This document shows positions 8,583-64,000 of a DNA stretch of 64,000 bases, piece by piece; the first letter of the stretch is position 1, and every line of letters starts with the position of its first letter. The DNA is from Pseudomonadota bacterium (lineage in GTDB: Bacteria > Pseudomonadota > Alphaproteobacteria > UBA1280 > RI-95), in NCBI GenBank assembly GCA_016125375.1, contig WGLU01000008.1, positions 124,001 to 188,000 of the forward strand, in the 5' to 3' direction. The notes under the pieces are model-generated. The model was not told the DNA's origin, did no database searches, and saw only the letters and a program-made list of their open reading frames with translations. A program made the translations under genes and the position numbers.

Positions 8583-8597
8583 AATCGCGGCCTTTTT
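8572..8597 (+). terminator. Intrinsic terminator of the GT4-GT9-lipoprotein operon
   Basis: AAGGCCGC ... GCGGCCTT followed by TTT. The lipoprotein stop codon lies in the loop. Confidence 0.82.
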
Positions 8598-8722
8598 AAC
8601 CTGTCAGTTAACTGTCCGACAGGAATTATAATACCTTCCTATAAACATGTACCTAAGCGTTTCCACACCTGTGGAACGTTTGGCGCATGTAAAGACAACG
8701 ATAAACATGAGGGTGGCGGCAC

Positions 8723-27044: not shown

Positions 27045-30000
27045 TTGGCAGTCTTTACCGCCAAACATAGGTACCACACGCTGCTGCTAAGCGGCCTTTG
27101 GGCGCTGGGCGGCCTTTTTTATGCGCCGGATGCCCATGCCCAGACCCGCACCAACCGCGTGCAGGACAACGTTCTGCTGCTGGAAGTGTGTACGGGTGAC
27201 GATGCAGGTAAGATCCGCGCGATTGTAAATTCTGCCTTTGGGACCAATGCCGTACGCCTGTGCGATGGCCGTGCCGGTCAGAATGATGATATTTGCGCGC
27301 TGTTGCCGCTCGTGATTAACAAGCCCTACGTCAATCCGGCAGATAAAAAGTATATCGAGCGCTGTTCTTCATCCAACGACATTACGCCCGAAAACCTTGA
27401 TGGTGCCAACGTCCTGAGCGGCGGCTCGTCCGGTGGGAGCAACGCCTTTTCCGGTAGTGGACGTTCCAACTTTGGCGGCGGTGGCGGCGGCTCCGGCGGC
27501 GGTTCATTCGGCGGCGATACAGGGTCGGCCTTCAGCGTTGTGGATACAACAACAGACACCCCCACCAGTAGCGGCGGTACAACATCGTTTGGCGGCAGCT
27601 CCAGTTCTTCGAGTGGTGGGTCGACAACATCATCCAGCTCCTCGTCCGGCGGTAGCAGCGCGTCCTCCTCGTCGAGCAGCTCCTCCTCGGGCAGTTCTTC
27701 TTCTGGCGGCAGTACAACGACAACGACCAGCGGTTTTGGCAGCACCAGCGGTTTTGGGTCAAGCTCCGGCAACGGTAGCACAACCACAACCACCACCAGT
27801 GGTTTTGGCAGTACCAGCGGCTTTGGCAGCAGTAACTCGTCAAGCAGCGGTGGTACCACAACGACAACGACCAGCGGTTTTGGCAGCACCAGCGGTTTCG
27901 GGTCAAGCTCCGGCAACGGCAGCACAACCACAACAACCACAAGCGGTTTTGGCAGTACCAGCGGCTTTGGCAGCAATAGCTCGTCGTCCGGCAGTGATAT
28001 CACGCAGGACACCTGTACAGGGTTCGACATGTCCCTGTCCTATGAGTTCGGCGGTGTGACCAACTGTATGAAAAAAGGCTCCAACGCTTCCGACGGGACC
28101 CTGATTGACGCCACATTGGGTGTGAACGCAGACGGCCTTGACCCCACCAAAATCTTGGGATGTTCGGGGTTGGATATAGGTGAGCTGGTCAGCAAGGAAC
28201 TGGGTGTCGGGGGCGATGTTAACATCGGTAACCTCGGGCAGGAGTTCGGCAACTACCTCAAATCCACACTCGCCCAGCAAGCGCTGACCATGATTTACTC
28301 CGACCCCGCAATTGCGGGTATTCAGGACAACCTCAAGGCCGTAGGTAACATGCGCGCCAAACTGTTGCAGGAACGGTGCAACATTAACGAAATCAAGTCA
28401 AAGTCAGCCAAAAGCCAGCGCCTGAACTCCGAAGCGCAAGAACTGTGTATTCAGGAAAAAGGCCAGACAGGCAGCAAGGAATGTACAGACCCCGAGATAT
28501 TGAAGCCCTACATCCAACAGGTGGCCGAGAGCCCTCGCTGGAAAGAAGACTTCTCCAACCGCATCTGCGACAAGACAGGCAGTGGCGCCAGCACGACCAC
28601 GGATCCCAGCTGCTCGTGGACCACACTGCTGCCTAACTTTAAAACCAAGATCGACGACGAGAACAAAACCGTCATCGGTCCTGACGGTCAGCCTTCGCCG
28701 ACCTCTCAGGAACCCATCACGCCACCGCCAATGACCAACGAAGATGTCCACAGTGTTGCCGCCCAGGCCGCCATGGACATGATGGATGAAAAGCGTAACC
28801 GTGCCGCTGCCTACGTGCGCGAGTTCGGGTACACAGACGCGTTGCAGCAGTCACTGAACCAGACCGCAGACGGCCAGCCTGCCTCGCGGACGACAACAGA
28901 CGGACAGCACGCACAGGGACGTGACTACATTTATGACGTAGCAGAAGCCATTATGGGCGCACAGGTGTGCAAGAACTCGGTCATCGAGGCCCTGAACTTT
29001 GATAAACCGCTTTTCAGCTCCGCGCAGGCGATTCTGAACAGCACCTCCACGTCCGGCGGTACCACATCATCAGCCCCGACAAGCAGTGGTGCGCCAACTT
29101 CCGGCGGAGCCCCTACATCGAGCGGCGCCCCGACCAGCGGCGGTGAACCCACGAGCAGTGGCGGGACACCGTCGTCCGGTGACACATCTGGCGAGCAGAT
29201 TACACGTCCGGTATCCGGCCAAATCACCAGCCCCTACGGTCAACGGGCGATTGCAGTCTACGGCGGCCGACGCAAAATGCACTGGGGTATCGACTTCAGG
29301 GCCGGCGTGGGCACACCAGCACAGGCAGCACATAGCGGCCGTGTCATCAACACACCCAACTCCTCCCGTTGCCCGGGTCTGAAGAGCGTAACTGTGACCA
29401 GTCTGGACGGCAAGTTCCAGACCCGCTACCTGCACGTGAGCAGCTTCCAGAAAGAAAACGGTGCCATGGTCAATCAAGGCGAGGTTGTCGCCATGACCGG
29501 TAACACGGGTGCCCCTGCCTGTACCAGCGGCCCGCACTTGCACTTTGAGCTGAAAGTCAACGGTCAGATTGTTGACCCTTCGCCTTATCTGGGCGAGCAT
29601 CCGCCTGCCCTGCCGCCTGACTTTAAGGCCGACGAGCACGGCGACCGCCCAGCAGCCCTTGCCGTTGTTGGTGACGGCGCGGCCACCAGCCCCTACGCCG
29701 AGCAGTTGCAGGAAGATTTGAACAACATTGGCTCGCACATTCTGGCAGCTACGGAATGTCTGGTTTACCGGCACATCCACCCGCACGTCTACGTCAAACT
29801 GACCACGCTGCCGGAAGGTGTTGCGCAGGGCTTTATTAAAGGCATGGCCGATATTATCGCTGACGAGGCCACGCTTGCCGTGCTGAACGGTCTGGTGTTC
29901 GAGCTTTCCTACGCGATTGCTAAAAAGGGTACCGAGGGGCCAAACGGCCTTAACCCTGACATGAAAGCGTTTGCCGATATTCAGCTGAAGCTGCTTAAAG

Positions 30001-30113
30001 ATATGCGAGACGCTGCCTTGAGCATGAAACAGATACGCGGCGATCTGCGTGAACGGATTGCCAACATGAACCGCATTATCGAGGCAGCCGTGCCGCCCGA
30101 TAGCCGACGTTAA
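27045..30113 (+). CDS. TraH-like secretion-associated protein with Ser/Thr/Gly stalk and M23 peptidase domain
   Basis: 1022 residues from a TTG start; no ATG is available nearby, an in-frame stop lies 15 bases upstream and GGGG precedes it. There is a signal peptide to ~AHA-Q (residue 33) and a Cys-containing N-domain (~35-115). Residues ~125-325 are Gly/Ser/Thr-rich with SGFGSTSGFG repeats. Residues ~325-560 contain GCSGLDIGEL, LQERCNINEI and ESPRWKEDFSNRICD, which align with the TraH-like protein encoded at 59188 (GCSGVDIGGL, LQEKCDANEI). Residues ~721-848 are an M23 endopeptidase with complete zinc ligands (HWGID and HLHFE). The C-terminus (~890-1015, IHPHVYVKL, MRDAALSMKQI) again matches the 59188 protein. 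It is probably a periplasmic peptidoglycan-cutting part of the secretion system. Confidence 0.82.
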   Translation: MAVFTAKHRYHTLLLSGLWALGGLFYAPDAHAQTRTNRVQDNVLLLEVCTGDDAGKIRAIVNSAFGTNAVRLCDGRAGQNDDICALLPLVINKPYVNPADKKYIERCSSSNDITPENLDGANVLSGGSSGGSNAFSGSGRSNFGGGGGGSGGGSFGGDTGSAFSVVDTTTDTPTSSGGTTSFGGSSSSSSGGSTTSSSSSSGGSSASSSSSSSSSGSSSSGGSTTTTTSGFGSTSGFGSSSGNGSTTTTTTSGFGSTSGFGSSNSSSSGGTTTTTTSGFGSTSGFGSSSGNGSTTTTTTSGFGSTSGFGSNSSSSGSDITQDTCTGFDMSLSYEFGGVTNCMKKGSNASDGTLIDATLGVNADGLDPTKILGCSGLDIGELVSKELGVGGDVNIGNLGQEFGNYLKSTLAQQALTMIYSDPAIAGIQDNLKAVGNMRAKLLQERCNINEIKSKSAKSQRLNSEAQELCIQEKGQTGSKECTDPEILKPYIQQVAESPRWKEDFSNRICDKTGSGASTTTDPSCSWTTLLPNFKTKIDDENKTVIGPDGQPSPTSQEPITPPPMTNEDVHSVAAQAAMDMMDEKRNRAAAYVREFGYTDALQQSLNQTADGQPASRTTTDGQHAQGRDYIYDVAEAIMGAQVCKNSVIEALNFDKPLFSSAQAILNSTSTSGGTTSSAPTSSGAPTSGGAPTSSGAPTSGGEPTSSGGTPSSGDTSGEQITRPVSGQITSPYGQRAIAVYGGRRKMHWGIDFRAGVGTPAQAAHSGRVINTPNSSRCPGLKSVTVTSLDGKFQTRYLHVSSFQKENGAMVNQGEVVAMTGNTGAPACTSGPHLHFELKVNGQIVDPSPYLGEHPPALPPDFKADEHGDRPAALAVVGDGAATSPYAEQLQEDLNNIGSHILAATECLVYRHIHPHVYVKLTTLPEGVAQGFIKGMADIIADEATLAVLNGLVFELSYAIAKKGTEGPNGLNPDMKAFADIQLKLLKDMRDAALSMKQIRGDLRERIANMNRIIEAAVPPDSRR
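27714..27984 (+). repeat. 144-base tandem repeat, two copies, in the stalk region
   Basis: Copy 1 starts at 27714 and copy 2 at 27858. The copies are nearly identical at the DNA level for ~127 bases and encode two half-units of SGFGSTSGFGS separated by Thr runs and Ser/Asn spacers. The flanks are further Ser/Gly-rich codon repeats (TCC/AGC/GGC). The high identity points to recent expansion. Confidence 0.8.
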
Positions 30114-41647: not shown

Positions 41648-42230
41648 ATGCGGCGCGGTTGCGGAATCTGCGGACAATCAATGCGTCCAGACTGAGTGTT
41701 CCGGCACCGGTAAAGAACAGCGACAGCAACATGATGAAATAGGTAGCGGCAAACTCTATCCCGTTATTCAACAGCACCAGCGGCCCGTGGCGCACCAGCT
41801 CCTGATATTGCGGGTAGTCCTGTGCCCACTCCTTGAACTGGGTCAACGCAGTCGCCCCTTCCATCATGCCGAACCAGTAGGAGTCTGACGCGGCAATCGC
41901 CAGCCAGCCATTACCCAGATGGACCGAGAAGATGGCAACCAGCATCGTCACCATCAGGGGAACCGTCGCCCAGCGTGTGGCCACACCGGCCAGCAGTGCC
42001 ATTGACCCGCCCAGCTCGGCCATTATGGCCATAACTGCCATCAGCGTGGGGAACGGCAGCCCCAGACTGTCCCCAAACCAGGACACCGTATCCGGGAAAC
42101 CCCTCAGCTTGTTCACACCTGCCTCCCACAAGGGCAGAAACAGATAAATACGCATCAGCAGTGGTGCCAGACCGTCGGCGATACGTGTTTTGTCCAACAG
42201 GTCCTGCGCGTGGTTGAGGAGTTTGATCAT
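41646..42230 (-). CDS. DoxX-family membrane protein
   Basis: 194 residues with four membrane helices and the DoxX signatures: LLMRIYLFLPLWEAGVNKLRGF near residue 22 and MAELGGSMALLAGVATRWA near 68. The family (DoxX/YphA-like) is linked in some bacteria to thiosulphate oxidation, disulphide stress or membrane redox balance; the role here is unknown. An AAGGAA site precedes the ATG. The EAL gene lies 62 bases upstream on the same strand. Confidence 0.8.
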   Translation of the reverse strand: MIKLLNHAQDLLDKTRIADGLAPLLMRIYLFLPLWEAGVNKLRGFPDTVSWFGDSLGLPFPTLMAVMAIMAELGGSMALLAGVATRWATVPLMVTMLVAIFSVHLGNGWLAIAASDSYWFGMMEGATALTQFKEWAQDYPQYQELVRHGPLVLLNNGIEFAATYFIMLLSLFFTGAGTLSLDALIVRRFRNRAA

Positions 42231-42292: not shown

Positions 42293-43120
42293 TTACACGT
42301 TACCCAGCGCCTCGGGCGCTGCCATGTTCACATAGATAATGCCGAACTCCTGAAACAGTTTTTCTGCCGCGGCCAGCGACGGTGTGTGTTCGGCAATCAG
42401 CGTTAGTTGACGGTCATCACAAATCGCGAGCAACTCTTCCTGTTCATGGGGGTCAGGGTCAAGAAAACGCTCGACCACATGTTCCGACAGTTTGACAAAA
42501 TCCAGCGGGAGCTTGCGCACGTGCTCCAGCGTGTGGTGACCGTCGCCATAGTCATCCAGCGCCCAGCGGTAGCCCTGCTCCTTGAGAGTATCCATAAAAT
42601 CCACCAGTGCCATGTTGGCCGGCAGGTATTCGGTTTCCGTAATTTCCAGAATCACATAAGCAGGGTCACCGCCCATTTGCTCGTAGTGACGCAGCACCTC
42701 TGCCACGCGGTCACGGTGCGGGCCGTCTCGTAACAGTGCCGGGGGCACGTTAATGCTGATATGCCGCCCCAGCCTGTGCACGTGGGTCAACTGTTCGACC
42801 AGCAGGTAAGGGATGACTTTCGGGAACAGTTTCAGGTCCTGTACCGCCATCAGACTGTCAAATACGGGGAGCGGTTTACCTGCATCATCAAAAATCCGCA
42901 GCAACATTTCGGAAAAAAGCTCTGTGCCCGTCCGGCTGTTCAGTACCGGCAGAGTGACGAATTTGACGGTCCCGTTGCGCAACGCATCGATAGCCCCCTG
43001 TGCCAGCAAGCGCTGGCTGCGGGCCTGCGCTTGGCTCTGACCGCCCTGAATCAGCGCATCCACCCCCGCATCCAGCAGGGAGGTGACTTCGTCTATCGGG
43101 GGCAGGGCAAAGCGGGTCAT
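42293..43120 (-). CDS. Degenerate EAL-domain protein
   Basis: 275 residues with a C-terminal EAL-like barrel from ~70. Visible family points are SEMLLRI at the EAL position, HISINVPP with the metal Asn, ILEITETEY, ALDDYGDGHHTLEHVRKLPLDFVKLS and LIAEHTP. The EAL triad itself reads EML, the DDFG loop reads DDYG, and the downstream Glu-Val-Glu segment is lost. True EAL enzymes hydrolyse cyclic di-GMP; this one may be weak or act as a c-di-GMP/protein-binding regulator. There is no GGDEF or membrane part. Confidence 0.75.
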   Translation of the reverse strand: MTRFALPPIDEVTSLLDAGVDALIQGGQSQAQARSQRLLAQGAIDALRNGTVKFVTLPVLNSRTGTELFSEMLLRIFDDAGKPLPVFDSLMAVQDLKLFPKVIPYLLVEQLTHVHRLGRHISINVPPALLRDGPHRDRVAEVLRHYEQMGGDPAYVILEITETEYLPANMALVDFMDTLKEQGYRWALDDYGDGHHTLEHVRKLPLDFVKLSEHVVERFLDPDPHEQEELLAICDDRQLTLIAEHTPSLAAAEKLFQEFGIIYVNMAAPEALGNV

Positions 43121-49630: not shown

Positions 49631-52264
49631 TTAAGCCACGCGGCTGCCTTGTTGGGCGGCGCGCTGGCGGGCGGCTGCCTGTGCCGCACGAACACCGTGC
49701 GGGTACATTTGCGAGAATTGAATCGCGGCGCGCCAACGGTCACCGCCGTTTTCGCTTGCCAGTCGGTTCAGCTCCGCCACGTCATCCGGCGTCGTGGTTG
49801 CCAGTGCGTAGGTCAGTTTATCCGTCAACAATCGGCAGATTACCTCGCCGTGGGGCGACATCAGGTAAAACTCCGAATAGAAGCCGGGCTTGGTATCCAG
49901 CGAGCCGATGTTCTCGGCGTGACGCTCCGAACGCAGACCCAGCGATTGCATCAGCAGCGGAATCATCTCGCGTCGGGGCTTGAGGATCATCCGTTTGGTA
50001 ATGTTACCGATAATGGCCTGACCGACCTCTGTGGTCAAATCCTCTTCGTTCTGGGTGGCAATGCCGCACATACAGTTCAGCGAGCGGTACGTACGGAACG
50101 CACGCTTGAGCTGGTTGGCCACCTGCTGGCCGCCCTGTGCAGACACCATGGAGATCATCTCGTCCACCAGAAGGTGTTTCTTCTCGCCACGGTCACCCAG
50201 ATACATGATGTTGTCGAGCATTGTGAAGATGGAGTTCACAATCACGTCGGAGATTTTTTCCGACAGCACGTTCTGGAGGTTAAACACCACCAGCTGGTCT
50301 TTTTCTGTAATCGATGGCGGGCCGTCAAACAGCTTGCCGTACACGCCGTCATGGCAGTACGAGCCGATAATCTCGGCGCTCTGGAAGCCAATGTTACGCT
50401 GCTCGGTGCTGGTGTACGGGAAGCGCATGTAGGCTTCGCGAATCCAGCTCGGGCGCAGGCAGTCATCTTCCGGTACCAGTTCATAGGCAAACTGGACAAT
50501 CTGTTCGACCAGGCGCGCTTCCTCGCGCTGAGGCTCGTAAGAACCGCCACGCATCAGCATCAGCTCCAGCGCAACCGACCACTGCTGCAGGCGGTGCTTG
50601 GTCATTTCACCCGTAAACGGGTTAATGCAGGACTTGGGCGCGTCCAAATCGATAATGATCAGCTTGCCCATGGTTTCGGCAAAGCGGTCATAGTCGTCCT
50701 TAATCGTCATCAGGTACTGCTTTTTAATGCCCGCAGCGAAGAGCTGGAGCGTCAAGTCAACCACCGCAAACGATTTACCCGAACCCGAGGTACCCGTGAT
50801 GGCGTAGTGCCAGTTCACAAAGTCCGGGTGGGTATGGTCGAAGAAAGTAATTTCCCCGTCACGGTTGACGTACACGGCCTGTGGAATCTCGTGCCCGCCC
50901 CAGTGGCCGTGAATCGGCACCAATTCGCACATATCGTCGGACAGAACGCGGCGCGTACGCGCAAATGGCTTGGTAAAGCGGTTACGCCAGACCAGCGGCC
51001 AGGAGTAGATAATCCCTTGCAGGCACATGGAGCGTTCCATATCCGGCACAACGGAGAGCTTTTTAAAGGCCGAGTTAACGCGCAGGAGGCGTTCCTCCAC
51101 TTCGCGGCGGGAGTATCCGTGCACAACAACACCCAGCATCATAAACATGATACGGCGGCCGTTCACCATCCGCAATTTTACCTGTGAGGCTTCTTGCGCC
51201 ACAACGGCGGATTCCTCACGCGAGAAAATCGTCGCCACACGCTCACGCAGGGCGGCCTGTAGCGTGATCGCCACTTTCTCGACTGCCTGGTTGGCCTGTT
51301 GCATATTGCAGAAGAAGGTGTACTGCGTGGCCAATGTCCGGCGGATAATACCCAGATAGTCCGGACCCACGGCGTCAGGCATCATAGCCATCATAATCAG
51401 GCCATGGTAGTCCTGCCCGATTTTAATCATGTCGCCATCCTGCTCGATCGGCAGAGGGAAGAGCTGCTCGTCGTAGGAAATCATCGGGTCAACTACGATG
51501 CGTTGTCCGGCCTCGCGGTAGGATGGGCAAAAAGCGTTCCAATAGTGCTCTTTCAGCTCCTCCAGATTCATCCGGTGGATATTGAACATACTGGTCAGTG
51601 TGCTCTCGGCCGTCATCACGGCCTCATTAAATTCGGCCAGCGTCGCCTTCATGGTATTGTTCAGGAAGTTGCCCATGATTTTTTCAATCAACGGCAAACC
51701 AACCAGACCGCCTACAAAGCCCAGCACAACCGTAACGGCGTTAAAGGCAATAGCAAAGTAACCCAGAATATCCTGCTGTTCCGGGGTGCGCATGGTGATA
51801 ATCATGTAGGTATCGCGCAGCATCGAATAGCTGGTCGGCGAGACCTGATATCCGTTGAAACCCGCATCAAGCAGTTTTTCCGCACGGGAGTGGCGCAAAA
51901 TCTGGCCACGCTCGGATGTTGTGGATTTTTCCAGATAGAAGCGCATCTTTTTGGAAAGGTCGTTCGTCGATGTGATGCTGACCTGCACCTCGTAGGAGTT
52001 GTGTACGCTCTCGATAAACGTCTGGAACTCGCGAATGGTTTGCAGGTGACCGTCGTCGTACGAATACGAAGGCGGAACAGGTGTTTTCCACGCCACGCCA
52101 AGCGAGCCATCCTTCATCAGATGGACGCGGAACAGGTTGCTATTGTCGTCTTCCTCGAACTCAAAATAGGGCAGCTGTTCGCTCAGGCGAAAGCCGCGGG
52201 AGGGTACGTAAACGCTACCGTGGTCTTTTTGCGGAGTAGTGTTGTTATTGTTGTTGGCCGCCAT
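49631..52264 (-). CDS. T4SS ATPase, VirB4/TraC-like
   Basis: 877 residues, the size of VirB4/TraC/DotO-type ATPases. Residues ~1-430 form the N-terminal domain with a hydrophobic stretch at ~165-190 (YFAIAFNAVTVVLGFVGGLVGL), unusual for TraC. The ATPase half has Walker A GTSGSGKSFA (~490), a strand with LIIIDLD, Walker B HLLVDEMISM (~698) and GIATQNEEDL, the conserved Gln motif. It powers substrate movement or pilus assembly at the inner membrane. Its start lies 20 bases inside the lipoprotein gene. Confidence 0.88.
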   Translation of the reverse strand: MAANNNNNTTPQKDHGSVYVPSRGFRLSEQLPYFEFEEDDNSNLFRVHLMKDGSLGVAWKTPVPPSYSYDDGHLQTIREFQTFIESVHNSYEVQVSITSTNDLSKKMRFYLEKSTTSERGQILRHSRAEKLLDAGFNGYQVSPTSYSMLRDTYMIITMRTPEQQDILGYFAIAFNAVTVVLGFVGGLVGLPLIEKIMGNFLNNTMKATLAEFNEAVMTAESTLTSMFNIHRMNLEELKEHYWNAFCPSYREAGQRIVVDPMISYDEQLFPLPIEQDGDMIKIGQDYHGLIMMAMMPDAVGPDYLGIIRRTLATQYTFFCNMQQANQAVEKVAITLQAALRERVATIFSREESAVVAQEASQVKLRMVNGRRIMFMMLGVVVHGYSRREVEERLLRVNSAFKKLSVVPDMERSMCLQGIIYSWPLVWRNRFTKPFARTRRVLSDDMCELVPIHGHWGGHEIPQAVYVNRDGEITFFDHTHPDFVNWHYAITGTSGSGKSFAVVDLTLQLFAAGIKKQYLMTIKDDYDRFAETMGKLIIIDLDAPKSCINPFTGEMTKHRLQQWSVALELMLMRGGSYEPQREEARLVEQIVQFAYELVPEDDCLRPSWIREAYMRFPYTSTEQRNIGFQSAEIIGSYCHDGVYGKLFDGPPSITEKDQLVVFNLQNVLSEKISDVIVNSIFTMLDNIMYLGDRGEKKHLLVDEMISMVSAQGGQQVANQLKRAFRTYRSLNCMCGIATQNEEDLTTEVGQAIIGNITKRMILKPRREMIPLLMQSLGLRSERHAENIGSLDTKPGFYSEFYLMSPHGEVICRLLTDKLTYALATTTPDDVAELNRLASENGGDRWRAAIQFSQMYPHGVRAAQAAARQRAAQQGSRVA

Positions 52265-52655
52265 ACGTGCCCCCCCCTACACCGTCATCAACCGATTTTT
52301 CGTTTGCGGGCAGCACCCACTCGTACTTATCGGTCAGGAAGATGGTCGACCAGTTGCCAAATACGCGGGTGTTATCTTCGGTCACGTGGGGATAGGTCCA
52401 CACCAGCAGTGTCTTGGGCGGAGCTACAACTGCCAGTTCTTTTTCCGGGATATAGCTTGGGCGGTCAAACTTCGGCCGCGCCAGAATAATTGGCTTACCA
52501 TCCGGCCCAAGCATAGGGGCACGGTTAGCGGATTTATCCAGAGCTTCGTCCATGGATACCGGGTTATCCGGCGGCAGAGCGCCACCGTAGTATTTACAGC
52601 CACCCAGCGACAACGCTGTGGCACACATCACGAGAGCAAGACGCGTAGAAACCAT
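52245..52655 (-). CDS. T4SS-associated lipoprotein (TraV/VirB7-like position)
   Basis: 136 residues: signal peptide with lipobox LSLGGC (Cys at residue 20), then a Pro-rich, Tyr/Trp-containing mature part (LLVWTYPHVTEDNTRVFGNWSTIFLTDKYEWVLP) and a Gly/Gln tail. Lipoproteins at this place in F-type clusters (TraV) anchor the core complex to the outer membrane together with TraB; sequence similarity to TraV is not evident. AAGGAAG precedes the ATG. It overlaps the ATPase gene. Confidence 0.7.
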   Translation of the reverse strand: MVSTRLALVMCATALSLGGCKYYGGALPPDNPVSMDEALDKSANRAPMLGPDGKPIILARPKFDRPSYIPEKELAVVAPPKTLLVWTYPHVTEDNTRVFGNWSTIFLTDKYEWVLPANEKSVDDGVGGGTYGGQQQ

Positions 52656-52664
52656 GTTTCTTCC

Positions 52665-54041
52665 TTATCCTTTTTTATCTGCGTCAAACAACAGGGTCCA
52701 GGCGTTGCCTTCCGAGCGCAATTCCGTGCCACTCAGCAGAACAACGTGGATTTTACGTGTCGCGTCGATACGGATGAACGGCGATACCCGTTCCGCACGT
52801 TCGCGCAAGTAGTCCGTCAGGTCCGACAAGGCATCGTTGGCACCGCCGGCGATCGAGGCGCGGGCCTCGTTGCCTGTCAGGAACTGTTGTGTATTGCCAT
52901 CCGCACCGGTAACGGTGGTTTGCTGGTTCTCGGACACGATACCTGCAAGACCGGAAGCAAACTGGGCGGCAATCGACAGTGCGATACGGCCTGAATCGCC
53001 CTCAAAGAACACGCCGGGAACGCCTTCCACACCATCCTCAGCATCAACCACGTAACCGGCAACGTCATAAGTAACGGCGCCGCGGTCGGGGTAGATACAC
53101 GTCATGCGCGCAGGCTTGCCGCGTGCACGCTCTGTGGAGATAACGCCCTCGAACTCAACCAGCATGAAGCACCCATCCAGAATAACGGTGGAGTTCATGG
53201 CAGTTTTGTAAATACCGTGCAAACGCACCAGCGCCGGCGTGGCCTCACCACCGTCGGCAATCGCATCAATACCGTTCAGCAACGTACCCTTTACAAAGCC
53301 CAACGGCGGAATAAACGGCTTACGCTCGACGTCGTCCTGCCTGTCGATGCCCAAGGTCTGACCTGTGGTGGTTTGCAAAACGCCCTGCAACAGCGCCTGG
53401 TTGGAGCCGACATTTGGCGCCCCACCCACGCTACCTAAAGGGGTTTGATTAATCCTCTGCTTAGGCCGACGGGTAACCTGTCCCTGTTGACCTGTTGTAC
53501 CCGCACCGGCGCGCAACCCTTGACGACGGGCCTCCTCTGCAAGGCGGGAAATCTCTTCACGCTGACGGGCATTTGCCTCTTCCATCAGGCGCATCTGCTC
53601 ATTCAGGGTGTTCAACGTCTGCTCCAGACGCTGCTGCACACCCTGCATTTCCTTGGTGCGCTGCTCAAATTCGGTACGTTGACGCTGTGCCTCATCACGC
53701 AGGTCGTCACGCAGGTTCTGAAGGGCGACCGTTTGTTGTGTTACAAAGCCGCGGCGCAACTGCTCGGAGTTGGTTTGAACCGGCGCAAAAGGATCCTCCC
53801 CGTCCTGAGGGGTTGGCGCGGAGTCATCAACTTGTGTTACCAGCGGGGCCCGTTCAACAACGGCGGGTGGGGGTGCCGAGTCATGGCCACCAGAGCGGAA
53901 CAGCAGAATAAGGAACATAAATGCAAAGAGGCCGAGGATAGCCATCTGCCCATTCTTGGGCAGCCGCTGGAAATTAGCGACGGCAGTGCGCAATCCCCCC
54001 TGATCCGTCCCACCACGTGGGTTCTGTTCGAAATCAGACAT
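52665..54041 (-). CDS. traB: T4SS core protein TraB/VirB10-like
   Basis: 458 residues with the F-type TraB layout: short cytoplasmic start, membrane helix at ~33-50 (MAILGLFAFMFLILLF), Pro-rich segment and a coiled coil (~100-170, many Gln/Glu/Arg). The VirB10 domain follows from ~245, with PFIPPLGFVKGTLLNGIDA, GCFMLVEFEGVISTERARG, GYVVDAEDGVEGVPG and a final PFIRIDATRKIHVVLLSG. VirB10/TraB bridges inner and outer membranes and forms the core channel with TraK/VirB9 and TraV/VirB7. GAGGAG precedes the ATG. No VirB9/TraK homologue was recognised beside it. Confidence 0.87.
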   Translation of the reverse strand: MSDFEQNPRGGTDQGGLRTAVANFQRLPKNGQMAILGLFAFMFLILLFRSGGHDSAPPPAVVERAPLVTQVDDSAPTPQDGEDPFAPVQTNSEQLRRGFVTQQTVALQNLRDDLRDEAQRQRTEFEQRTKEMQGVQQRLEQTLNTLNEQMRLMEEANARQREEISRLAEEARRQGLRAGAGTTGQQGQVTRRPKQRINQTPLGSVGGAPNVGSNQALLQGVLQTTTGQTLGIDRQDDVERKPFIPPLGFVKGTLLNGIDAIADGGEATPALVRLHGIYKTAMNSTVILDGCFMLVEFEGVISTERARGKPARMTCIYPDRGAVTYDVAGYVVDAEDGVEGVPGVFFEGDSGRIALSIAAQFASGLAGIVSENQQTTVTGADGNTQQFLTGNEARASIAGGANDALSDLTDYLRERAERVSPFIRIDATRKIHVVLLSGTELRSEGNAWTLLFDADKKG

Positions 54042-59187: not shown

Positions 59188-60645
59188 TTAACGTGCGTCG
59201 GGGAATGCAGCAGATGCATCCCGGTCCGCCCGGTCAATTGCTTTGTTCAGTGTAGCTACACGCTCAGAAATATCTTTGTAAGACTGCAACGTCTGCACGA
59301 GGGCATCCCGCATGCTCTTGAAGTTCTCAATCTGCATCAAGGCAAAGTCGCGCATGTCTTTGTTCATGGTGTTGGCACCGTCACCCTCGGCACTGCCTTT
59401 GGTGGCCAGCGTCTCAGCCATTTTGAAAATAATGGCATTCATCACGTTCACGCTGGCGCGGGCAGCAATCGCCTGCGACAGGCTGCGAATCATGCCGTCT
59501 TTTTTCTCGGGCGAGAGCAGGGCAATTTTCACATCCACGTGGGGGTGAATTTCCTGGTCCACAATGCACTTGGCCGTACCCTCGATAATTTTGTTGATGT
59601 TACCGAACGCATCACCAGGGTTGTTGCCTGAGAGCATGGCTGTCACATCCGTCAGCGAACGCCCGCTTTCTTCGTCAATACAGGCGTTACCCAAAAGCTG
59701 TTGCCATGCCAGACTGTCACCGCCGCCGGCTGTTGTGCTGCTGTCACCAGCCGCACCGGCTGTCACAACACCATCGCTAGCTGGTGCAACGGAGGCAGGA
59801 TCTGCATCGTCGGTAGAACCTGTCAGCGCTTCCATCGTCTCGGTCACGCCTTTTTCCTTAATCATATTTTCCGTCTTGGTCACACGGTCACGCAGGCGGT
59901 CACCGGCGGCCTGATCGGCGCGGTCAAACAACTGGGTCGGCCCCACAGCGGCAGCGGCTGTTTTACCCTGATTATCGCCAAGGTCGTAGGCGAAGTTAGG
60001 CATCAGCTTCAGCCAGTCGCAGTTTTCCTTCGAGGAGTCGCACAGGAAGTTGTGCAGCGTACCCGACCAGCGCTGGGTCTGGGATACTTCGGTGATATAA
60101 GACGACAGATTGCTTGGGCTGTCACAATACACCTGATCGTGCTCGGCCAAACACTTCTGGTAACCCTCACTCCGCAGGCGGCGGTTACGGGCGTTGGCCA
60201 TAATTTCGTTTGCGTCACACTTTTCCTGCAAAATACCCGCACGGGCGTGACCCACGGCTTTCAAGCCGTCAAGCACCGCAGACACGGCCGGGGAGGAATA
60301 CACAAGTGTCAGAGCTTCTTTTGCCAAGCTGGTTTTCAGGTAGTTGGAGAACTCGCTACCAATGTCGCCGACGTTGAAGGTATTTTGAATCAGACCACCA
60401 ATATCGACCCCGGAACATCCGAGGATAGAATCCGCTTCGAAGCCAAGGTTAATGTCGACGATATTCGCTTCATCCCCGCCCGACTGAGTGCCGGTATCCT
60501 TACCGATATTGGGTACACCGCCAAGGTTGTAGTAGGTACTGTAGTCTACTACCAGACCCGACTGGTTTGCGTCCAGCGCCTGAACCCCGCCCGGCATGGC
60601 CAGCAGAGCCGTTGCAAACCCCAGTAAAAGTGTTTTGATCTTCAT
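59188..60645 (-). CDS. TraH-like periplasmic T4SS protein
   Basis: 485 residues with a signal peptide (MKIKTLLLGFATALLAMPGGVQA). The block GCSGVDIGGLIQNTFN followed by a helical stretch ending LQEKCDANEI parallels F TraH (GCGGID ... then a Cys-containing helix); the C-terminal ~120 residues are helical. Both ends align with the protein at 27045, making the two paralogues. TraH acts in the periplasm with TraF and TraW during pilus assembly. The start at 60645 is preceded by GGGGAC; the in-frame ATG at 60672 would add nine residues before the signal peptide. First structural gene after the regulator. Confidence 0.68.
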   Translation of the reverse strand: MKIKTLLLGFATALLAMPGGVQALDANQSGLVVDYSTYYNLGGVPNIGKDTGTQSGGDEANIVDINLGFEADSILGCSGVDIGGLIQNTFNVGDIGSEFSNYLKTSLAKEALTLVYSSPAVSAVLDGLKAVGHARAGILQEKCDANEIMANARNRRLRSEGYQKCLAEHDQVYCDSPSNLSSYITEVSQTQRWSGTLHNFLCDSSKENCDWLKLMPNFAYDLGDNQGKTAAAAVGPTQLFDRADQAAGDRLRDRVTKTENMIKEKGVTETMEALTGSTDDADPASVAPASDGVVTAGAAGDSSTTAGGGDSLAWQQLLGNACIDEESGRSLTDVTAMLSGNNPGDAFGNINKIIEGTAKCIVDQEIHPHVDVKIALLSPEKKDGMIRSLSQAIAARASVNVMNAIIFKMAETLATKGSAEGDGANTMNKDMRDFALMQIENFKSMRDALVQTLQSYKDISERVATLNKAIDRADRDASAAFPDAR

Positions 60646-60677
60646 GGTCGTACGTCCCCAAAATACCTGCACGAAAG

Positions 60678-60700
60678 TCTATGCATGTGTTCTTATGCAT
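60678..60700. repeat. Paired TATGCAT boxes upstream of the T4SS structural genes
   Basis: [TC]TATGCAT occurs twice (ATGCAT at 60681-60686 and 60695-60700), 14 bases apart, in the 115-base interval between the regulator gene and the TraH-like gene. They are candidate operator half-sites. Confidence 0.35.
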
Positions 60701-60760
60701 ATGGTATCAAATTATGCGCCAAACAACCCCTGACACCGCTCAAAACCGAAGGTTTTCCGG

Positions 60761-62869
60761 TTATCCGACCTTTTTGGCAACACCCAGCTGGGCACCACGG
60801 TTGTGGATTTCCAGCCGGAGGGCATTCAGGTTTTTCTCCAGCGCATCCAGCAGGCTGACCAGTTCGATCACCTGATTCCGGCGCAGCTCGGTGCGACGTA
60901 CGGCCTGAGCGGCGCTGTCCATGCCTTGCAGGGCACCAGCCATGCGCTCGCTTATCTGGTAGAACTGACGGACCTGTTTAATTTCGTCTTCGATGGCTTT
61001 CGGATTACCGAATTTCATCAATTCAGACGCATCCAGCTCGCGCTTGAGCATATCCGCTTCCGTGCGGGTCTGATTCAGCTGCTCGCGCTGGCTGTTGATG
61101 ACTGCCTCGCGCTGGGCCGCCCAAACCTCGGCATCCTTCAGCGCTTTGGCGTATGTTTCCAGCTGTTTCTCCAACGCCTCAAGCTTGCGGACAATATTAG
61201 GATCGGCAGGACCCGTTGCAGAAGCAACGGCAGGCTTGGCCGATTTACCGCCTAACGATGCCTCCAGTTCCGCAATCTTGTCTTCCGCAGCGGCGGCAAA
61301 GAGCTTGTTGAACTTTGCGCCTTTTGACCATGCCATGCCGTGGCGGCGGATAAAGGCCGCAATCTGCGCCTGGATATCCTCGCTCAGGTCAACACACGCG
61401 CTGGCGTTGGTAATCTGTACGTAGCCGTCTTCAAACAGTGCGCGCAGGACCGGACTAGCTTTGTCCCGAACCTTGCAGTAAACAAGCACGTTCGGCCGGC
61501 TGGTTCCCAGGTGGTCGGCAATCTTTTGCTGGCTGAGACCGAGGCTGCTCAAAGCACGAATTGCGTAGTACATCTCGATCTTGTTGGACTTGTGCAGCCG
61601 CATGTTGAGGACAACACGCATGAGCTTTCGGTCAAAGTCTTGCCCAAACTTGCGTGTGAGGCACAGATATTCTGTTTTCCCTTTGGCTTTGGCGGCACGC
61701 AGGCGGCGCTCGCCGTCAATAACGTAACCTTCTTCAGAAACCACTATCGGGTATAGCGGGCTGTTCTCGTCAAAAGAACGCACAAAGGCCTGAAACCGTT
61801 CTTCGTCCTCAGGTGGGCGGAACTCCAGCTCCAGCAACTTCAGGCTAGAGATAGGGCGCAGCCCGACTTCCAGCAGGGCAAAGCGCTCGTTTTCCTTCTC
61901 CGTGAAAATCTCTTCATAGGCAGGGGGCGCATTGTCCTCTACAAAAGCTTCTTCCGGACCTTCGTCAGCATCATCGGCCACCGTTTTCTTGGCGGCATCC
62001 TTAGCCATCTTTTTGATATCCGGATAGGTGGCCAGGAAGATGTTCGTTATCTCGCTGCGCCGTTCCTCATCGGCATTCTCTACCGATTCTTTCAGCAGAC
62101 GCAGGACGCGCTTTTCGTTGAACTTGAGTTTGCGGAAGTCGTACTCCACTGCCTCAAGGTCACCGTCAATCAGGCGCTGGACGTAAAAGGCATCCATCAG
62201 CTCGTTCATGACCTGGCTGGCGCGGGAGTCGGTCACGCCGAAGTGATACGCGATTTCCTGGAAGTTATAGACACCGCCCACCTTGACGTGCAACAGGGCG
62301 GCCTGTTTCTTCTCGTCCTTTTCGCGGGCAACCAGTTCGGACAGTTTACGGTCAAAAAAGCTGTCGCGCATGATTTTAAAGCGGATGTCTTCCCGCGCAC
62401 TTGCTCGGGCCATCGACACCTCGCGGGAGAGGTGCTCCTGCATGGGGCTTTCGTGGTCAAGGTGTTGCACCAGAAGCGGCGGGTCGGCACGGAAGCGCTC
62501 TTTCTCCTCCGCGCTCATCCCTTCTGTCACAGCCTGGCGTGCTTGGTATTCAGGGTCACGGTTACGCATTTCCATGGCCCGGCTTTCCAAACGGTTGCCA
62601 AAGAAGGTATTGAACTGCACCTCGATAAACTTGCCCTCTTCCTTTTCGTAGATGGGCGTATAGTCGCGCAGACACGTCAACAGAACCTCGTAAGACTCCT
62701 GGAACAGTTCTTCAGGGTCGAGGCGATATTTGCGGGCAATGTTAAAGGTAGCCTGACGGCGGCTTTGCATATAGTTGACAGCATCGTCCCGGGCAGCAAC
62801 AAAGCCGTCATCAGCTTCGCGCAGCTTCTGGAGTTCTTTCGCAGTCGGTTTTTTTTGTTCTGCGGACAC
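60761..62869 (-). CDS. Sigma-70-like / ParB(KorB)-like fusion regulator
   Basis: 702 residues from a GTG start preceded by AGAAGGTG. Residues ~45-105 resemble sigma-70 region 2 (FNIARKYRLDPEELFQESYEVLL ... FNTFFGNRLESRAMEMRNRD). At ~203-225 there is a region-4-like helix-turn-helix (NFQEIAYHFGVTDSRASQVM). Residues ~335-395 are a ParB/Srx domain (LRPISSLKLLELEFRPPEDE, YVIDGERRLRAAKAKG) and ~440-463 its helix-turn-helix (LSQQKIADHLGTSRPNVLVYC). A coiled coil from ~520 ends the protein. The likely role is transcription control of the downstream T4SS genes, perhaps with DNA partition-like spreading. ATGs at 62932 and 62890 lack ribosome sites. Confidence 0.7.
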   Translation of the reverse strand: MSAEQKKPTAKELQKLREADDGFVAARDDAVNYMQSRRQATFNIARKYRLDPEELFQESYEVLLTCLRDYTPIYEKEEGKFIEVQFNTFFGNRLESRAMEMRNRDPEYQARQAVTEGMSAEEKERFRADPPLLVQHLDHESPMQEHLSREVSMARASAREDIRFKIMRDSFFDRKLSELVAREKDEKKQAALLHVKVGGVYNFQEIAYHFGVTDSRASQVMNELMDAFYVQRLIDGDLEAVEYDFRKLKFNEKRVLRLLKESVENADEERRSEITNIFLATYPDIKKMAKDAAKKTVADDADEGPEEAFVEDNAPPAYEEIFTEKENERFALLEVGLRPISSLKLLELEFRPPEDEERFQAFVRSFDENSPLYPIVVSEEGYVIDGERRLRAAKAKGKTEYLCLTRKFGQDFDRKLMRVVLNMRLHKSNKIEMYYAIRALSSLGLSQQKIADHLGTSRPNVLVYCKVRDKASPVLRALFEDGYVQITNASACVDLSEDIQAQIAAFIRRHGMAWSKGAKFNKLFAAAAEDKIAELEASLGGKSAKPAVASATGPADPNIVRKLEALEKQLETYAKALKDAEVWAAQREAVINSQREQLNQTRTEADMLKRELDASELMKFGNPKAIEDEIKQVRQFYQISERMAGALQGMDSAAQAVRRTELRRNQVIELVSLLDALEKNLNALRLEIHNRGAQLGVAKKVG

Positions 62870-62916: not shown

Positions 62917-62940
62917 CATACCTTAAAACCATACCTTAAA
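62917..62940. repeat. Tandem 11-base direct repeat upstream of the fusion regulator
   Basis: CATACCTTAAA at 62917-62927 and again at 62930-62940 (13-base period), 48-71 bases before the GTG start. The arrangement suits an autoregulatory operator. Confidence 0.45.
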
Positions 62941-62972: not shown

Positions 62973-64000
62973 CTAGGCGGCATGACGGGGCAAAACAGCC
63001 TCAATATCCCGCAAATACGGCGATGCCTCGCCAGAATAACTGACAATCAGGGCGTTTTTGGCGCGTGACATGCCAGTAAATAATAATTTACGCTCATTGC
63101 GATCCGGGTTGTCCAGAACCTTCATCGGCATCGGGTAGGATTTGACCGTCACCATGGGCATAAAGACCGTATCGAACTCCATGTTGCGGGATTCCCGAAC
63201 CGGTGCAATCAAAACCATAGCGGTGGGATCCGGTGTTTCGTAGTCACGAATCTGGTCGAGCATCTGGGTTAAGCGGCCCTTCAGGCTTAACAGCTCATCA
63301 AGACCATGCAGCGCATCGGTGCGGTCATCATCGCGAAAGTTTTGGATCATATCGAATGCGGCAGCTTTGAAAGTATCCTTGGGACCGACCTCACCCATCA
63401 TTTTGTAGTAGCCCTGCAAGCGGCGTTGCAACGTGCCAATAGCCCGCATGGTTGTGCTAGGCAGTTCAGCTTCCAACCCTTTGGGCAGCGGTGCACCACG
63501 CCCCAGCCAGGTATCGGCCACCAACCCGTGATAGAACAGCGCATCAATAGCCTGCCGTGACAAACCAAAACCCGCAAAAACGTTCTTGAGGCGGTCATCG
63601 GTACTGCGGTTAATCAGCACCTCCAGCAGGTCAAGCATCAGAATCGCACCCGGTGTTTCCCATACAGAGCGGGCGAAGTTGGTTGCAGGAATATTCTGCG
63701 CGCGCAAATAGCGCTCGACACGGCGCGCCTGCAGGTCGTGGCGAACAATAATGCCAATCCGCCCTTTTGGATTCCTCTTCAGCGCCTGAGAGACGTTCTC
63801 TGCCAGTTGAGAGAGCTCTTGCTCCATCGTCTGCATACCCAGCAAACGAACATCCCCCCCCTCACCACGGGCGGCGGTCGCCTTTTTGGACAGACGTTGT
63901 GTAATTTTGCGGGATACTGCCGCACATGCCTGACCAATCGCTGCGGTTGAACGGAAGTTCTTCTCCAGCACATAACGGGGCAAATCATTGAGTTCTTCAA
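62973..64000 (-). CDS. UvrD/Rep-like DNA helicase, C-terminal part
   Basis: The frame is open to the window edge, so the N-terminal ATPase half lies outside. The visible ~342 residues include motif IV (LEKNFRSTAAIGQ), a motif-V-like segment (APVRESRNMEFDTVFMPMV) and motif VI (ERKLLFTGMSRAKNALIVSYSG) of superfamily 1 3'-5' helicases. The usual H-x-x-K-G-L-E of motif V is altered to R-E-S-R-N-M-E. These enzymes unwind DNA in repair or plasmid replication. It is upstream of and co-oriented with the sigma/ParB regulator, 103 bases away. Confidence 0.8.
   Translation of the reverse strand, partial: EELNDLPRYVLEKNFRSTAAIGQACAAVSRKITQRLSKKATAARGEGGDVRLLGMQTMEQELSQLAENVSQALKRNPKGRIGIIVRHDLQARRVERYLRAQNIPATNFARSVWETPGAILMLDLLEVLINRSTDDRLKNVFAGFGLSRQAIDALFYHGLVADTWLGRGAPLPKGLEAELPSTTMRAIGTLQRRLQGYYKMMGEVGPKDTFKAAAFDMIQNFRDDDRTDALHGLDELLSLKGRLTQMLDQIRDYETPDPTAMVLIAPVRESRNMEFDTVFMPMVTVKSYPMPMKVLDNPDRNERKLLFTGMSRAKNALIVSYSGEASPYLRDIEAVLPRHAA

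Follow-up and report, generated by a model that had tools for sequence, protein, structure and literature searches.

The 702-residue protein encoded on the minus strand at positions 60761-62869 of the window (the whole stretch of 64,000 nucleotides that was analysed) joins a sigma70-like half, a ParB/KorB-like half and a coiled coil in a single chain, and we consider it rather likely that this sigma-ParB protein serves as a regulator dedicated to a chromosomal F-like type IV secretion system (T4SS), binding DNA and controlling its own gene as well. Such a regulator, with a sigma factor as its scaffold, accounts for the linkage, the DNA sites and the sequence constraint described below; computation establishes the architecture and homology of the protein, its strict association with the T4SS and the conservation of short TGTCAG sites, through which it probably controls the T4SS and its own gene. 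The gene, which is single-copy in its genome, starts with a GTG at 62869 and ends with a stop codon at 60761-60763. An alternative in-frame ATG at 62932 would give a product of 723 aa; the GTG is preferred because homology to the relatives sets in near residue 6 and because there is an AGAAGG-type ribosome site 5' of it. Along the chain, with all coordinates on the minus strand, profile matches and alignment delimit a sigma2-like segment (residues 38-115; 62525..62758) and a sigma4-like helix-turn-helix (HTH) segment (residues 171-236; 62162..62359), sequence and fold searches delimit a ParB/Srx nucleotide-binding-fold domain (residues 318-425; 61595..61918) and a ParB/KorB-like HTH domain (residues 426-535; 61265..61594), and the predicted structure adds a C-terminal coiled coil (residues 557-701; 60767..61201) with helices at 557-617, 623-657 and 664-701, the predicted models being of medium confidence (pLDDT 70, pTM 0.37-0.43). 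The same layout in one frame had been proposed in a preliminary description of this DNA, and profile matches, Foldseek and the model bear it out.

Several comparisons bear on the ancestry of the N-terminal half, and while no single one is decisive, in combination they make its origin from a sigma factor very likely: 1) The window protein alone matches TIGR02937 (sigma70-ECF) over residues 38-225 of the 702-aa numbering with E 0.19 and Sigma70_r4 with E 0.013, both under the curated cut-offs. In seven of nine relatives TIGR02937 is matched by sigma2 and then sigma4 over nearly the full model (best E values 6.8e-8 and 1.6e-7), every match of the family lying below the curated cut-off of 42.9 bits. 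2) Relatives match phrog_351, annotated as "RNA polymerase sigma factor", at 2.5e-7. 3) When hhalign sets the N-terminal profile against 23 sigma factors of the same class, the score is 41.1, compared with at most 21.2 for column shuffles (setting aside two scores near 133, which are edge artefacts of 7-11 columns) and at most 34.0 for 12-column block shuffles (apart from a single untraced outlier of 147.8). 4) Foldseek with the AlphaFold2 model of this half (pLDDT 70) retrieves mostly sigma factors among the top 50 PDB chains (sigma-S, sigma-A, sigma-28), the best E being only 0.07, and a fold search of a viral library returns several phage sigma factors (best named E 0.01). Searching PDB sequences with this N-terminal profile gave no sigma chain, the sole match being a designed protein at E 0.39; hence, the sigma homology rests on the family models, hhalign and the fold search. 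The outcomes that the preliminary description had named as refuting, a lack of sigma matches in residues 40-230 or a prediction with an unrelated fold, were not obtained.

Alignment by eye with RpoD of the same genome places Q57 and E58 against the QE of region 2.2 (DLIQEG / LIQEG), both residues being invariant wherever the region is covered, FNTFF against FSTYA of region 2.3, and an invariant phenylalanine at the place of Y430. In sigma factors the QE residues of region 2.2 bind the beta-prime clamp helices. The region 2.3 tryptophans are missing and an insertion separates regions 2.2 and 2.3. Sigma factors of RpoD type and RpoH type are also encoded in the genome, along with two short ones.

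In the remainder of the chain the window protein matches TIGR00180 (E 3.9e-10, below that model's cut-off), ParB_N (E 0.007) and, in a PDB sequence search, Spo0J (5e-6), while Foldseek with the whole model finds Noc/ParB at 4e-7 and KorB at 2.4e-5 (8qa9, TMt 0.69); by sequence and fold alike the protein thus combines a ParB fold with an HTH domain. A comparison of the nucleotide-binding motifs showed that: 1) the GxxR of Box II is kept, with G386 and R389 invariant in 13 of 13 sequences and DGxxR invariant as a whole. 2) In Box III the asparagine (N422) is retained, the glutamate of ENxQR is replaced by I, L or V, and QR is gone. 3) The QP of the C motif has lost its glutamine and retains the proline. 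The genome's own chromosomal ParB retains QP and all residues of ENxQR. According to a survey of the ParB fold, nucleotide binding requires the GxxR arginine, orphan ParB proteins often diverge in Box III, and a fusion with Sigma70 bound ATP (PMC12704722). Given the retention of DGxxR and of the Box III asparagine, the loss of the QP and ENxQR residues and these survey facts, nucleotide binding by the sigma-ParB protein is plausible and ParB-like hydrolysis doubtful. Constraint is unevenly spread over the chain: mean pairwise identity falls from 0.79 in the sigma4-like HTH, the most conserved part with 39 of 66 positions invariant, through 0.65 in the sigma2-like segment (31/78 invariant) and 0.58 in the ParB HTH, to 0.41 in ParB-N and 0.39 in the coiled coil. 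A descending order of sigma4-like segment, sigma2-like segment and ParB HTH is what would be expected if contacts to DNA and polymerase are the constrained parts.

The gene lies between a UvrD/Rep-like helicase gene (62973..64000, minus strand, the whole gene reaching about 64715 in the contig), which is the adjacent upstream gene in most relatives, and further T4SS genes. The next gene downstream (59188..60672, minus strand) encodes a 494-aa protein without a family match, which takes the place of a TraH-type protein. Further along the same strand, a block spanning 49631..54041 comprises genes for a TraC-type ATPase (49631-52264; TIGR02746, 3.8e-53), a small protein (52245-52655) and a TraB-type protein (52665-54041; PRK13729, 7.9e-24). 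The parts recognised in the cluster as a whole are TraB, TraC, VirB8, a VirB2/TrbC pilin, a transglycosylase, a prepilin-peptidase domain and a pseudopilin-like protein; a T4CP-type gene lies on another contig, and the type of relaxase searched for, TrwC, was not found in eight genomes. The preliminary description had set the gene at the head of a secretion cluster. It does belong to such a cluster, but not at its head: other T4SS genes flank it on either side, and the cluster continues beyond the window end as far as the contig end. Pilus parts are combined in this cluster in an unusual way, as a 189-aa prepilin-peptidase N-terminal domain and a pseudopilin-like protein (L045:13606-16544) occur together with the VirB2-type pilin. 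Elsewhere in the window, a 1022-aa frame (27045-30110, plus strand) resembles, over one region and at about 33-35% identity, the secreted protein whose gene directly follows that for sigma-ParB; genome G005 has a similar pair. In addition, a gene for an HvfX-family copper-binding RiPP maturation protein (41649-42230, minus strand; E 4.6e-54) adjoins one for an EAL-domain protein (42296-43120).

The order of genes around the sigma-ParB gene is kept in most relatives, across several families. The protein is present in six of six genomes of the order and in nine of 385 genomes sampled from the class, and a neighbouring 244-aa T4SS protein occurs in exactly those nine; with co-occurrence in the same 9/385 genomes and synteny, the fixed T4SS linkage looked for in an F-type T4SS regulator is found here. 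The link to the T4SS is stronger than had been claimed from the sequence at first sight, as the two co-occur strictly, their synteny is kept and they share DNA elements. The 244-aa protein (L045:9635-10366 = C5:189635-190366, past the window end) is secreted, has no Pfam match and is among the most conserved of the cluster, at 58-72% identity. The phylum sample yielded the sigma-ParB protein in one of 398 genomes, its own. Searches of plasmid and phage collections gave ParB-only matches and no full-length match, and one ParB-only relative was found on viral contigs; a plasmid or phage origin was set aside, as neither collection yields a full-length match.

De novo search of the regions upstream of the sigma-ParB gene in ten genomes returned TGTCAG/CTGACA as the top 6-mer, with 15 sites in nine of the ten regions. 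Dinucleotide shuffles of these regions give an expectation of 0.6 sites, and the local intergenic rate (13 of 112 other upstream regions of the same neighbourhoods) an expectation of 1.3; the corresponding Poisson P for 15 against 1.3 sites is about 1e-11, a value that ignores shared ancestry, the regions compared coming from related genomes that are not independent. The window's genome has no TGTCAG directly upstream of the sigma-ParB gene; two copies precede the SLT gene, which is located outside the window, two genes further up the apparent operon. In the interval that separates the sigma-ParB gene from the next T4SS gene, a TGTCAG element (60730..60735, minus strand) lies immediately upstream of the -35-like box of a putative sigma70-type promoter of that downstream gene (60698..60726, minus strand), in which TTGTTT (60726-60721) and CATATG (60703-60698) are separated by 17 bases. 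The relatives have TTGAWA-N16/17-TATAMT at the same place, a sigma70-type promoter in several genomes. TGTCAG is found downstream of the sigma-ParB gene in only 5/12 genomes, directly upstream of the promoter in four of them and nearby in the fifth. The pattern CTGTCAGGANTTG has exactly three exact matches in nine genomes, all directly behind the sigma-ParB gene; as it was taken from those same sites, the informative point is that there is no other exact match. The genome-wide census of sites covers one 13-base pattern, and the other counts cover about 350 kb of neighbourhoods.

Some sites form dyads, such as CTGTCAG-N16-CTGACAG in locus L033 and TGTCAGTTTTT...AAAAACTGACA in L053, and in L031 and L037 sites adjoin promoters and lie close to the start codon. 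Sites face both ways and their distance to any -10 varies. A role of TGTCAG as a -35 box was set aside on this variation of orientation and spacing. Since orientation and position differ from site to site and ordinary sigma70-type promoters adjoin them, the sites look like operators, a better fit than -35 boxes, and the earlier proposal that the protein could recruit RNA polymerase to the T4SS operon as a sigma factor stays conjectural. Their position suggests the sigma-ParB protein as the binder, although footprints beside a gene are not proof that its product binds them. An intergenic dyad in the window at 8595-8640, CCTGTCAG...CCGACAGG, is followed by a TATAAT-like sequence, precedes two small genes without a family match and may be a further site of this kind. 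One relative has three TGTCAG/CTGACA sites outside the T4SS cluster, grouped in about 320 intergenic bases (G087 C7:447719-448043).

In the model that we favor, a sigma70-family ancestor would have given rise to the N-terminal half, with sigma2 and sigma4 joined by an extended linker, and a ParB/KorB-type domain, its HTH and the coiled coil would make up the rest of the chain. Dimers, held together by the coiled coil and possibly closed through nucleotide binding in the ParB fold, would bind TGTCAG half-sites beside sigma70-type promoters of the regulator's own operon and of the downstream T4SS operon, and thereby tune both, the sigma-derived half probably contacting promoter DNA and/or RNA polymerase. 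Dimerisation, nucleotide binding, polymerase contact and the sign of regulation are elements that we infer. A sub-case of this model, which it includes rather than excludes, is a KorB-like repressor whose sigma-derived half is no longer linked to polymerase and serves only as an extra DNA-binding module; we regard it as a tentative possibility. The KorB domain among the fold matches is consistent with it, KorB represses transfer genes via clamp sliding (PMC11790492), and sites that adjoin promoters and lie close to the start codon, as in L031 and L037, are what repression predicts. But the strong constraint on the sigma2-like segment, which exceeds that on ParB-N, would be unexpected of a mere spacer.

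The protein could instead be a working alternative sigma factor, its sigma2/sigma4 half binding core RNA polymerase and guiding it to the promoters of the T4SS, and its ParB half, depending on nucleotide, gating or tethering it. The ordered match to nearly the whole TIGR02937 model, the invariant QE and phenylalanine assigned by eye, and the predominance of sigma factors among the top PDB and phage fold matches all point this way. The missing tryptophans, the insertion between regions 2.2 and 2.3 and matches that stay under curated cut-offs argue against it, as do sites in both orientations at variable distances from any -10 and a downstream promoter of ordinary form that a housekeeping sigma would use. 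A working sigma factor is thus possible, though the observed promoters do not require one, and we hold this reading to be doubtful. Less likely is a true sigma factor that carries its own ParB-type nucleotide clamp. It would load polymerase at T4SS promoters or keep it in their vicinity, and could also close around DNA and slide along it; if true, this would couple nucleotide state to promoter choice.

The steady presence of genes for helicase, transglycosylase and the T4SS around it might also suggest that the protein is an accessory of the T4SS in DNA processing or substrate handling, partnered with the adjacent UvrD-like helicase. Such a role appears very unlikely, given that the protein has no detected nuclease or relaxase domain, that a search of eight genomes yielded no TrwC relaxase and that promoters are where the DNA sites are located. 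The ParB fold and HTH would also agree with a ParB relative that acts in partition or nucleoid organisation and holds or segregates the DNA around the T4SS. This is highly improbable, because the canonical parAB of the genome is a separate pair, its motifs intact and a parS-like site adjoining it, whereas the sigma-ParB locus lacks the neighbouring parA and parS of a canonical ParABS system, with no parA beside the gene and no match to a parS-like site within the window.

The regulator that we favor would represent a family, fixed in the chromosome, that unites a sigma-factor scaffold and a ParB clamp in one chain, and the short conserved DNA element makes the idea testable. The host is a small-genome alphaproteobacterium whose relatives carry the same protein, among the sampled genomes solely with one chromosomal T4SS. 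If the sigma half still binds polymerase, the family would represent a new coupling of a nucleotide switch to promoter choice; if it does not, it would be an example of sigma domains reused as DNA-binding modules. Either way it offers a handle on the control of secretion in an uncultured lineage.

The pairing of ParB and Sigma70 is not unprecedented: Kaljevic et al. 2025 report, in one sentence, a bacterial fusion of the ParB-CTPase fold with Sigma70 that binds ATP (PMC12704722). Like the sigma-ParB protein, it has both domains in one bacterial protein; the main text associates it with neither a T4SS nor a DNA site. A Pfam-based survey would probably have missed the present family, as both its parts score below the Pfam cut-offs. 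The statement of the preliminary description that no standard family joins the two must therefore be softened, fusion as such being on record; as far as found, in a literature covered thinly for subscription journals, the architecture, the T4SS linkage and the TGTCAG element have no published description. With the sigma70-family factors (TIGR02937; FliA-like region 4) the protein shares sigma2 and sigma4 in order and the fold matches, but it differs from them in being fused to ParB and a coiled coil and in scoring below the curated thresholds. VirB of Shigella is likewise a ParB-family protein that regulates transcription of secretion genes, but it is an antisilencer without a sigma part, and its genes and sites are different (PMC10770331). 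KorB of plasmid RK2 resembles the sigma-ParB protein as a ParB-fold and HTH regulator of transfer genes, to which the fold match 8qa9 and the shared GxxR arginine and Box III asparagine attest; N146 matters in KorB (PMC11790492), and N422 is its counterpart in our own alignment. Unlike KorB, the sigma-ParB protein is chromosomal, has a sigma-like N-terminus and a long coiled coil, and is associated with TGTCAG half-sites.
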